A stretch of 32,792 nucleotides of DNA from Crocinitomix sp. (GTDB lineage Bacteria > Bacteroidota > Bacteroidia > Flavobacteriales_D > Crocinitomicaceae): contig DQTE01000130.1 in the NCBI GenBank assembly GCA_015662905.1, forward strand, positions 1 to 32,792, given 5' to 3'. Both the position numbers and the translations under genes were made by a program. Positions 26,014 to 32,792 of the stretch are shown one piece after another (position 1 is the stretch's first letter; each line of letters begins with the position of its first letter). The notes beneath the pieces were generated by a model, which saw only the letters and a list, made by a program, of their open reading frames with translations, ran no database searches and was not told the origin of the DNA.

Positions 26014-26088
26014 GGTGGTTGTAGTTCAGTTGGTTAGAACGCCTGATTGTGGTTCAGGAGGTCGTGGGTTCGAGTCCCATCTTCCACC
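26014..26088 (+). tRNA. tRNA-His (anticodon GTG), CCA not encoded
   Basis: Cloverleaf traced by hand: D-stem GTTC/GAAC, anticodon stem CCTGA/TCAGG with loop TTGTGGT, T-arm GTGGG TTCGAGT CCCAT, G-1:C73 pair. Confidence 0.95.
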
Positions 26089-28481: not shown

Positions 28482-29606
28482 TTATGATTTAAAAGTGTCT
28501 ATTGCATCAAATAATCGTTGGGTAATGTCGTCAATAGAACCAACGCCATCTATTTTAATAAATTTATTCTGTTTATTATAATAATCTGCTACTACTGCAG
28601 TTTGGTCATTATAAACTTTAATTCTATTTCTGATTACCTCTTCGTTAGCATCATCTGCTCTACCAGAATCTTTACCTCTTAACAATAGTCTATTTACTAA
28701 TTCATCTTCATTAACGTCTAAAGCTAACATTAGTTTTACACTAGTGTTTCTTTTAGATAAAAAAGATTCTAAAGCATCTGCTTGTACTTCTGTTCTTGGA
28801 AATCCATCAAAAATAAATCCTTCAGCTTCAGGATGTTTTTCTACTTCACTTTCAAGCATTTTAATTGTAACTTCATCAGGAACTAATTGACCGTTATCTA
28901 TATAGCCTTTAGCTAATTTGCCTAATTCCGTTTCATTTTTTATGTTATATCTAAACACATCACCAGTTGAAAGATGGTATAAATTATATCTATCTACAAG
29001 TCTTGCCGCCTGTGTTCCTTTTCCTGCGCCCGGAGGACCAAATAAAACAATGTTTAACATTACTGTATCTTTTAGTTTATATATTTCTTTTAAGTTACGA
29101 CCTAGTTCATCATAGTCAAGCCCGTACCCAACAACAAAAGTATTGGGAATTTCTAAACCTACATAATTAATAGAGTATTTTTTATTAAAAACGGTAGGTT
29201 TTAGTAGCAAAGTAGCTATTTTAATTGATTTTACATTCAAATCGTTCAATATTGGTAATACTTTTTCTAATGTATTGCCAGTATCAATAATGTCTTCAAC
29301 AATAACAATGTCTCTGTTCTTAATATCGTGATTAAAACCTATCAATTGATTGATGTTACCTGTTGAGCTCGTTCCTTCGTAAGATGAGAATTTGACAAAA
29401 CTTATTTCTAAATTAAAAGATAGCTCTTTCATTAAATCAGAGGTGAACATAAAAGAACCGTTTAGAATGGCAATGAACAAAGGCGGTTGCTTATCGGTTC
29501 GATTTTGAAAATCAGTTGAAATTTCTTGCGCTACTTTTTTAACAGCCTTTTTAATTTCTAGTGAGTTAATATAAGGAACAAAAGTTTTGTTGTGTAATTT
29601 AATCAT
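28482..29606 (-). CDS. Fused hypoxanthine phosphoribosyltransferase (N) / adenylate kinase (C)
   Basis: Hpt half: VIVEDIIDTGNTLEK; Adk half: MLNIVLFGPPGAGKGTQAARL, FIFDGFPRTEVQADAL; one uninterrupted 374-aa ORF with junction KLKDTV|MLNIV (internal Met codon starts at 29060). Confidence 0.95.
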   Translation of the reverse strand: MIKLHNKTFVPYINSLEIKKAVKKVAQEISTDFQNRTDKQPPLFIAILNGSFMFTSDLMKELSFNLEISFVKFSSYEGTSSTGNINQLIGFNHDIKNRDIVIVEDIIDTGNTLEKVLPILNDLNVKSIKIATLLLKPTVFNKKYSINYVGLEIPNTFVVGYGLDYDELGRNLKEIYKLKDTVMLNIVLFGPPGAGKGTQAARLVDRYNLYHLSTGDVFRYNIKNETELGKLAKGYIDNGQLVPDEVTIKMLESEVEKHPEAEGFIFDGFPRTEVQADALESFLSKRNTSVKLMLALDVNEDELVNRLLLRGKDSGRADDANEEVIRNRIKVYNDQTAVVADYYNKQNKFIKIDGVGSIDDITQRLFDAIDTFKS

Positions 29607-29695: not shown

Positions 29696-30838
29696 TTATA
29701 CATTTTTTTCTAAAAACTCTTCTATAGGATACACATACGTATCATTTTTATATAAATAGGGCATTTTTACAGGGGCGATAATGTAACTTTCTGTTGCTTT
29801 TATATCTGATAAAGCAATCCAAAATCCCTTGGTTACATTAGGTGTTGTAGAGGTTTTAATTTCTATAGCGATAACTTTAGTCCCTTTTGTTAGTACCAAG
29901 TCAATTTCATTGCCATTTGAAGAACGGTAATAATAATGATTCCAATCTCTGTATTTAAAAATGATGTTTTCAATAACTGTTACTTCCCAAGATGAACCGT
30001 AAATTGGATGAGTAAATAGTTCGTCAAATGTTTCAATTTTTAATAACGTATGTAGTACACCTGTGTCCCTAAAATATATTTTTGGCGATTTAATTAATCT
30101 TTTTTTTATGTTTAAATGATAAGGCTCTAATAACCTAATCATAAAAGTATTTTGAAGAATATCTATATAGTGCTTTACAGTGGTATGACTAACCCCCATT
30201 GAATTTCCTAATTGTGAATAATTTAAAATTTGTCCGTTGAAATGAGCCAACATCATCCATAACCTGCGAATGTTATTGGGAGCTATTTCAAACCCAAAGG
30301 TTCTTAAATCTCTCTCTAAAAAGGTTTTGATATAATTTTTTAACCAAACAAATGCATTTTTGTTAGTTTTAGCCAAAATACTTAAAGGCATACCGCCTAT
30401 AAGTCGATACCGTTGCATAGATATTCTATCCTTAATCTCTTGCCATAAAAAAGGAGTTAGTTCGTAATAATAAATTCTACCAGCCAAACTTTCCGAGCTT
30501 TGTTGGGTTAAAGTTGGAGATGAACTTCCTGAAATTATAAACTTTGTATCAGGATTGTTATCTATAAAAGGTCGTAACTCTGTAAATAAACTTGGCATTA
30601 TTTGTATTTCATCTATGCAAATGATTTTACCTTTGTTTAGTTTTAAAAAACTTTCGGTTTCTTTTATAACAGCTCTATCGGAACTTAATTCCATATCTAA
30701 AAAAACAACTTTTTTTTTGTCGGAAATTAATTGTTTTGCCAATGTTGATTTTCCTACCTGACGTGCACCAACAATTGCTATTACAGGAATATTATCCTGT
30801 TGCTCTTCTATGTCCTTTTGTATTAATCTTTTGAACAT
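29696..30838 (-). CDS. AAA ATPase with DUF4143 domain
   Basis: VGARQVGKSTLAKQL, IICIDEIQIMP, FIISGSSSPTL, ELTPFLWQE; C-terminal NEIDLVLTKGTKVIAIEIKTS. Confidence 0.92.
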   Translation of the reverse strand: MFKRLIQKDIEEQQDNIPVIAIVGARQVGKSTLAKQLISDKKKVVFLDMELSSDRAVIKETESFLKLNKGKIICIDEIQIMPSLFTELRPFIDNNPDTKFIISGSSSPTLTQQSSESLAGRIYYYELTPFLWQEIKDRISMQRYRLIGGMPLSILAKTNKNAFVWLKNYIKTFLERDLRTFGFEIAPNNIRRLWMMLAHFNGQILNYSQLGNSMGVSHTTVKHYIDILQNTFMIRLLEPYHLNIKKRLIKSPKIYFRDTGVLHTLLKIETFDELFTHPIYGSSWEVTVIENIIFKYRDWNHYYYRSSNGNEIDLVLTKGTKVIAIEIKTSTTPNVTKGFWIALSDIKATESYIIAPVKMPYLYKNDTYVYPIEEFLEKNV

Positions 30839-30874
30839 TGCTTTATAATTTTTAAATACAAATGTATTAATTAT

Positions 30875-31091
30875 CTATGTATTTTGCAAATTAAACTTTC
30901 AATTTGCATACATAATCCTATTAATTTAACTATGTATTTTGCAAGTCATACTTTTACTTTACATATATAATTGCAATAATTAACTATGTATTTTACAAAT
31001 TAAGTTTTCAATTTACATATACAATTGAAATGATTAACTATGTATTTTGCAAATTAAACTTTCAATTTACATACTTATTAAGGTGATAATT
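30875..31091. repeat. Four tandem ~54-bp direct repeats (consensus start CTATGTATTTTGCAAATTAAACTTTCAATTTACATA)
   Basis: Copies begin at 30875, 30930, 30984 and 31038 (periods 55, 54, 54); aligned by hand. Confidence 0.9.
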
Positions 31092-31240
31092 TTTTATGTT
31101 TTGTATTAATTTTACCACATCAAACTTGAAAAAACAGCAATTTTGGCAGTAAAAAAGCAAAGAATAAGACAGATTTTCCGGTATTTTACTTTGGTGCTAT
31201 AATTGACGACTTGGAAACGGACGGTAAAACCAAAAATAAA

Positions 31241-32792
31241 ATGGATATAGAAAAGTTAACACATAAAACTAAAGAAGTTTTAAATAAAGCACAAGCCATT
31301 GTAGAAAGAAATGGTCAGCAAGCTATTGAGCCTGCTCACATACTTAAAGCAATGCTTGAAAACGACCAAACAGTTTTTCCTTTTTTGTTTAGTAAATTAA
31401 ACGTTAACTTAAATCATTTTAAAACAGTTGTAGACAAAGTGGTGGAAAGTCTTCCTAAAGTGTCGGGAGGACAAGTTTACTTATCAAACAAATCAAATCA
31501 ATTATTAAATGATGCGTTTAAGTTATTAAAGGAGTTTGGAGATGAGTTTGTGTCCCTAGAGCTACTGTTTTATGCAATGACCGACTTAAATGATTCGGTG
31601 GGTAGTTTGTTAAAGGATAGTAAAATAACTAAAAAAATATTAAAAGAAGCTATTATGGATTTAAGAAATGGAAATAATGTAAATTCTGTAAGTGCAGAAG
31701 ATACTTACCAAAGTTTGTCTAAATATGCCATTAACTTGAATACGCGAGCAGAAAGTGGTAAATTAGACCCAATTATTGGTAGAGATGATGAAATTAGACG
31801 TGTTTTACAAATTTTAACACGTAGAACAAAAAACAACCCTATTTTAATAGGAGAACCAGGAGTGGGTAAAACTGCTATTGCCGAAGGAATCGCCCACCGA
31901 ATTGTGGATGGTGATGTGCCTGAAAATTTAAAGAGCAAAGTAGTGTACTCATTAGATATGGGAGCTTTGATTGCAGGCGCAAAATATAAAGGAGAATTTG
32001 AAGAGCGATTAAAGGCTGTTGTAAAAGAGGTTATTGATTCGGAGGGAGAAATCATTTTATTTATTGATGAAATTCATACCCTTGTGGGGGCAGGAGGTGG
32101 TGATGGCGCAATGGATGCCGCTAATATTTTAAAACCTGCATTAGCAAGAGGAGAATTAAGAGCTGTAGGAGCAACTACATTAGATGAATATCAAAAATAT
32201 TTTGAAAAAGACAAAGCTTTAATTAGACGTTTTCAAACTGTGATGATTGATGAACCTGATACGGAAGATGCTATTTCAATTTTAAGAGGTATAAAAGAAA
32301 AGTATGAAACTTATCACAAAGTATTAATTAAAGATGAGGCTATTATTGCAGCAGTTGAGTTGTCACAACGTTACATAACCGAAAGACATTTACCAGACAA
32401 AGCCATAGATTTAATTGATGAAGCAGCTTCTAAGCTACGTATGGAAATCAACTCTAAACCTGAAGAGTTAGATGAGATTGAACGTAAAATAATGCAGTTA
32501 GAAATTGAGAAGGAAGCCATTAAAAGAGAAAAAGATAAAAAGAAATTAGCTAAAATTGAAGAAGATTTAGCTAACCTTAACGAAAAGAAAAATGAGCTAT
32601 TTTCTAAATGGAAAACAGAAAAAGATAAGGTAGAAGCGATTCAACGTGCCAAAGAGGAGATAGAAAACCTTAAAATGGAAGCAGACATTGCAGAGAGAGA
32701 AGGAAATTACGAAAAAGTAGCTCAAATTAGATATGGTCGAATTAAAGAACTTGAAAACCAGCTTGACGCTTTAAGAGTTGAATTGCAAGAGA
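31241..32792 (+). CDS. clpB: ATP-dependent chaperone ClpB (partial; runs off the window)
   Basis: Open from ATG 31241 to window end: [39 protein letters not shown]...[17 protein letters not shown]...[23 protein letters not shown]; absent from ORF track for lack of a stop. Confidence 0.96.

Follow-up and report, generated by a model that had tools for sequence, protein, structure and literature searches.

The window, the 32,792-nucleotide stretch of Crocinitomix sp. DNA analyzed here, carries towards its end an AAA_14/DUF4143 ATPase gene of the PDC-S01 type, an array of four tandem repeat units in the promoter region of that gene, and a divergent clpB gene (Table 1). The neighbor is clpB-like by its AAA_lid_9 and Clp_N domains, as the initial annotation of the locus had it, and probably does not belong to the system described below. 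On the other side of the ATPase gene, a single open frame (28482-29606, minus strand) fuses a phosphoribosyltransferase domain to an adenylate kinase.

Table 1 Coordinates of the features discussed, as positions within the window
Feature	Position	Strand	Remarks
AAA_14/DUF4143 ATPase gene, PDC-S01 type	29696..30838	-	predicted winged helix, PD-(D/E)XK motif; promoter holds the array
Predicted Bacteroidota -7 box TACATTTG	30859..30866	-	20 bp from the unit 1 TTG; from sequence, known consensus
Repeat unit 1	30875..30929	-	55 bp; nearest the ATPase gene; contains predicted -33 TTG (30887-30889)
Unit 1 dyad TGCAAATTAAACTTTCAATTTGCA	30885..30908		equivalents at 30940-30963, 30994-31017, 31048-31071
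Repeat unit 2	30930..30983	-	54 bp; dyad most diverged of the units
Repeat unit 3	30984..31037	-	54 bp
Repeat unit 4	31038..31091	-	54 bp; repeat-like across first ~40 bases
clpB	31211..32791	+	divergent neighbor; truncated by window end; probable start ATG 31241

The array and its predicted promoter

The coordinates and spacing (55, 54, and 54 bp) first given for the four copies were confirmed. Tandem Repeats Finder (TRF) delimits the array at 30851-31074, with a period of 54, 4.2 copies, and a score of 278, far above any other in the window. The best direct-repeat self-match of the array region is 52 at a lag of 54, compared with at most 16 in 300 shuffles and at most 14 in the other 260-bp stretches of the window. 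Copies 1 and 4 share 93% identity over their first 41 bases, whereas the other copy pairs share 78 to 85%; the initial annotation was accurate in describing the outer pair as identical over the first 31 bases and different at one of the next six, and in placing a TGCAAATT-8-AATTTGCA dyad in copy 1 that is weaker in the other copies. It missed the dyad character of the copies, which have diverged and are not simple direct repeats.

The array occurs once in the 2.97-Mb genome. Only two lone sites outside it match CTATGTATTTTGCAA with one mismatch or fewer anywhere in the genome, BLAST of 1.7 units against the same genome returned the array alone at E < 0.01, and the dyad pattern of the array recurs at one further site, at 3 mismatches. 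This uniqueness led us to reject a dispersed repeat.

A predicted Bacteroidota-type promoter, TTG-N20-TACATTTG, which had also escaped the first reading, extends out of copy 1; its two boxes, whose coordinates were checked, correspond to the -33 and -7 consensus of this phylum. On the gene strand, ATGCAAATTGAAAGTTTAATTTGCAAAATACATAG in unit 1 is followed by ATAATTAA and then by TACATTTG. The array therefore overlaps the gene's own predicted promoter, with the -33 box lying inside unit 1, and units 2 to 4 follow upstream at 54- to 55-bp steps, approximately five helical turns. The ATPase start codon (ATG at 30836-30838) is 36 bp from the array, in agreement with the ~37 bp estimated earlier, compared with ~150 bp between the array and the probable clpB start. 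Operators control clpB in many bacteria, and the array sits between the ATPase gene and clpB, so that control of the divergent gene, for example by a heat-shock operator, could be envisaged; we regard this as extremely improbable in view of the distances, the absence of an adjacent clpB homolog from all of the DUF4143 loci examined, and the occurrence of such elements at DUF4143 gene starts throughout the family.

The ATPase is 380 amino acids long, with an AAA_14 domain followed by DUF4143, both above curated cut-offs, and it matches the PADLOC PDC-S01 profiles (E 4.2e-79). In 47 sequences that include the window protein, the Walker motifs are intact, with G24, R26, G29, K30, D76, and E77 invariant, as are the residues of a PD-(D/E)XK signature, E285, E311-x-D313, and E326-x-K328. 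In the AlphaFold2 model (mean pLDDT 94), the P-loop ATPase portion is accompanied by helices at ~187-237 that can be read as a winged helix and by an alpha/beta domain at ~280-354; the winged-helix and nuclease-like designations are predictions from motif and secondary-structure order. The nearest solved fold is that of the archaeal AAA+ ATPase SSO1545 (2fna), a PDB sequence search gave weak P-loop matches alone, and an NCBIfam search gave no informative family. A domain search found neither a transposase or recombinase domain nor a Rep domain in the protein. The array thus lacks the adjacent initiator gene that defines replication iterons, and nothing supports the term iteron, which the initial annotation had used, in its replication sense.

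Upstream elements of DUF4143 genes in the family, in other phyla, and on plasmids

We took 110 DUF4143 genes from the taxonomic family and compared the 160 bp preceding each with the upstream regions of other genes from the same loci; controls overlapping a DUF4143 gene or its upstream region were removed, leaving 122. With thresholds picked post hoc (a score ≥15 for direct or ≥11 for inverted repeats), 93/110 DUF4143 genes and 9/122 controls have an upstream tandem repeat or large palindrome, the remaining 17 family genes scoring below the thresholds. The odds ratio is 69 (p = 9e-36) and the threshold-free comparison gives p values of 4e-16 for inverted and 6e-18 for direct repeats, all of which overstate the number of independent cases because the genes are related. 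The operator-like reading of the array and its link to DUF4143, both proposed from the window sequence, were thus upheld among relatives. The 54-bp sequence itself, however, is not constant beside DUF4143 genes: sequence and spacing differ by ATPase subfamily, the element taking the form of 22/23-, 32-, 38-, 52-, 54-, or 64-bp repeats or of one palindrome (31-49 bp), often perfect. Direct repeats occupy the same upstream place in many subfamilies, and their periods cluster close to whole numbers of helical turns (Rayleigh R 0.79, n = 60; the genes are related and not independent). In the relatives too, the dyad contains or abuts the predicted promoter. The second DUF4143 gene of the window genome (L257:769-2223, contig C60 of G000) has a broken frame, split over two frames, and is preceded directly, at its start, by its own, different tandem array (33 bp x 2.7).

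Since a single-protein scan of genome contigs gave no confirmed relative, a broader set was gathered by alignment-based search, comprising 80 named loci from Pseudomonadota, Acidobacteriota, Chloroflexota, Verrucomicrobiota, Nitrospirota, and other phyla. The inverted-repeat score is 9.1 for 85 genes spanning many phyla against 6.7 in controls (p 3e-10), with no enrichment of direct repeats in this set (p 0.89), and the expectation of a tandem repeat in every case was accordingly dropped. Most of the set falls below the score thresholds, including many genes with flush imperfect dyads recognizable by eye. Relative to the start codon, dyad centers peak at -18.5 and -30.5, and no such peaks occur in the controls. 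The -18.5 class is a 37-bp palindrome flush with the ATG, for example CCTTGCAAATCGGGAATTAAACTCCATAATTGCAAGG immediately followed by ATG, with a -35-like TTGCAA in the left arm and a -10-like CATAAT in the right arm, ~17 bp apart. In the -30.5 class, a TTGACA-like box often lies near the center and a TATAAT-like box directly past the palindrome. These box positions imply, from sequence, that the transcript would begin at or near the ATG in both classes, leaving the palindrome untranscribed and the message without a leader.

This arrangement bears on whether the array could act as RNA, as leader hairpins or a terminator of the ATPase or clpB transcript. A hairpin is possible in copy 1, and the palindromes of relatives are often perfect. 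However, the predicted promoter lies downstream of or inside the element, and in many subfamilies direct repeats take up this position. The 69 non-complementary arm pairs show no excess of G.T (16) over A.A (18) or T.T (15), and Rfam covariance models at gathering score match nothing at the array, the sole match in the window being a tRNA at 26015-26088. An RNA role is very improbable, and the preference for DNA recognition expressed in the initial annotation stands, given the direct repeats and the palindromes that contain or abut the predicted promoter.

Homologs were found on 373 plasmid records, and plasmid genes collected afterwards follow the same upstream-element rule. The flush palindrome is present on plasmids of Octadecabacter, Phaeobacter, Roseobacter, Dinoroseobacter, Pseudooceanicola, Neorhizobium, Agrobacterium, Bosea, and Thiothrix, different palindromes precede the Moraxella and Runella genes, and no palindrome was discerned by eye for those of Sinorhizobium, Sulfitobacter, and a few others. 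Phage records yielded eight homologs alone, weak and unannotated. On three Roseobacter-group plasmids (L260, L265, and L266), a DUF4143 gene directly follows repC.

Pairing of the element with the ATPase

The elements of same-genome paralogs are unrelated, with a mean local similarity of 9.0 to 9.5 against 9.0 for shuffled sequences, the exception being one pair above 50% protein identity. Among pairs of genes from different genomes at 50 to 65% protein identity, 28% have an element in common. On the protein tree, element type changes 14 times, compared with 53 times when shuffled and 103 times for the genome label. By both the paralog and the tree tests, the site is co-inherited with the encoded protein and specific to it. 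The window core also matches the upstream regions of three of its nearest relatives from other phyla, which have flush dyads (L154, p 0.002; L155, p 0.006; L160, p 0.004); matches to the nearest relatives L153 and L157-L159 were not significant. Similarity of the predicted recognition helix is weakly associated with operator similarity beyond overall identity (partial rho 0.13). For similarity over ATPase residues ~103-116, the association with operator similarity is stronger (partial rho 0.25 versus 0.13).

Unrelated elements among paralogs, together with an element type that follows the protein tree, form the trace expected of a protein that binds its own site. A position overlapping the promoter would suit any regulator, so that the repeats could instead be operators of a separate host regulator. 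Such a regulator would be expected to use the same site at same-genome paralogs, which share none above the shuffled level; furthermore, the element tracks the protein tree over genomes and phyla, and the annotated plasmid stretches, which are short, contain no common neighboring regulator gene. We therefore consider a separate regulator unlikely.

Palindromes also occur apart from intact genes. In 200 family genomes, the exact palindrome TGYAAATTGAAA-N7-TTTCAATTTRCA of one subfamily was found at 19 sites, with an ATPase gene next to 10 of them (in one case truncated by a contig end), a gene fragment next to 4, and the other 5 standing alone. The five solo sites, each in a different genome and with neither an ATPase gene nor a recognizable remnant nearby, are L246, L247, L248, L243, and L245; the first three lie at the 3' end of aspS. 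In L250 (4296-4517), L252 (4279-4496), and L251 (4223-4357), a fragment encoding the ATPase C terminus lies close behind the palindrome, the central part of the gene being gone, and the L251 remnant is flanked by a 19-bp direct repeat, GAAGCGGGGGATTAAATAA. At L255 (4430-5822), related palindromes lie on either side of the ATPase gene, the downstream one 15 bp past the stop codon.

The solo palindromes are not explained by a model of pure autoregulation. They may be relics, but because relics should decay, a further role or mobility could also be entertained for them. A REP/RAYT-like selfish mobile element carrying the ATPase, with the palindromes as its ends or recognition sites and the promoter overlap secondary, would accommodate the three remnants that keep the palindrome and a 3' fragment with the middle deleted, the palindrome and truncated 5' copy beside an intact gene at L244, the solo sites in five genomes, the paired palindromes of L255, the direct repeat around one remnant, and the homologs on plasmid records. 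Against it, the ATPase lacks any transposase or recombinase domain, the upstream element sits over the promoter, and same-genome copies are diverged paralogs with no recent duplicates among them. We judge it a poor candidate, with a low probability.

That nearly every relative has its own, matching element points to control of these genes by the proteins they encode. The operator reading of the array is well supported, and we propose with moderate confidence that the units are cognate operators of the DUF4143 ATPase-nuclease gene, sited in its promoter and probably bound by the winged helix of the ATPase itself for autoregulation. The ATPase as binder, repression as the effect, and any link to defense are what we infer. 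Each 54-bp unit contains one imperfect dyad of TGCAAATT-like half-sites, unit 1 taking in the predicted -33 box and units 2 to 4 lying upstream on the same helix face. Under the autoregulatory model, the ATPase would most likely bind these sites as an oligomer through its winged helix, and the bound protein would repress or tune its own transcription until released by a change of ATP state or by an invader signal.

Comparison with known systems

PDC-S01 is described as a fusion of an ATPase domain with the PD-(D/E)XK superfamily and is reported to be the fourth commonest defense-type system across prokaryotes, with experimental validation pending for most PDCs (PMC12988326); in rumen genomes it is given as the most frequent individual locus (PMC13356809). 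The Thermus AAA_14/DUF4143 gene TT_P0211 is reported to show a 6.6-fold rise when plasmid and Argonaute are both present (PMC4406477), which fits an inducible gene. The open-access literature searched yielded no description of a cognate upstream operator of PDC-S01.

For this very common, uncharacterized candidate anti-phage family, the occurrence of a cognate promoter element in different phyla gives a first sequence handle on possible control of its genes. It predicts that a PDC-S01 protein binds a known DNA sequence, and the element could serve as a substrate in assays of binding, ATPase, and nuclease activity and as a simple reporter of gene inducers. More tentatively, the whole DUF4143/PDC-S01 family might consist of self-addressed DNA-binding ATPase-nucleases, whose own palindrome or array, occupied in the uninfected cell, would serve as lock and sensor; an invader drawing the protein off or altering its ATP state would switch defense on, and solo palindromes would be remnants or further targets. 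This generalization is possible but doubtful.

Tandem repeats in a Bacteroidota intergenic region recall the BrickBuilt MITE of P. gingivalis, which contains a minisatellite. BrickBuilt is a dispersed MITE whose description mentions no ATPase (PMC4596501), whereas the window array is single in its genome, and this identity was ruled out.

The iterons of plasmid replication initiators are helix-phased tandem repeats directly upstream of the gene for a winged-helix protein. The likeness lies in the tandem repeats, of ~22 bp in several relatives of the window gene; the window array differs in being chromosomal, in belonging to a family with several paralogs per genome, and in the lack of a Rep domain, and nothing points to a replication role for it.

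Toxin-antitoxin operators and the controller boxes of restriction-modification systems are palindromes over the promoter of the presumed binder's gene and are subfamily-specific. The elements described here resemble them in both respects and differ in that the presumed binder is an ATPase-nuclease, with no small antitoxin or controller gene seen. Another close counterpart is the PDC-S01 candidate itself (AAA_14/DUF4143, COG1373-type), whose profiles the window ATPase matches and for which the papers found name no cognate upstream operator.
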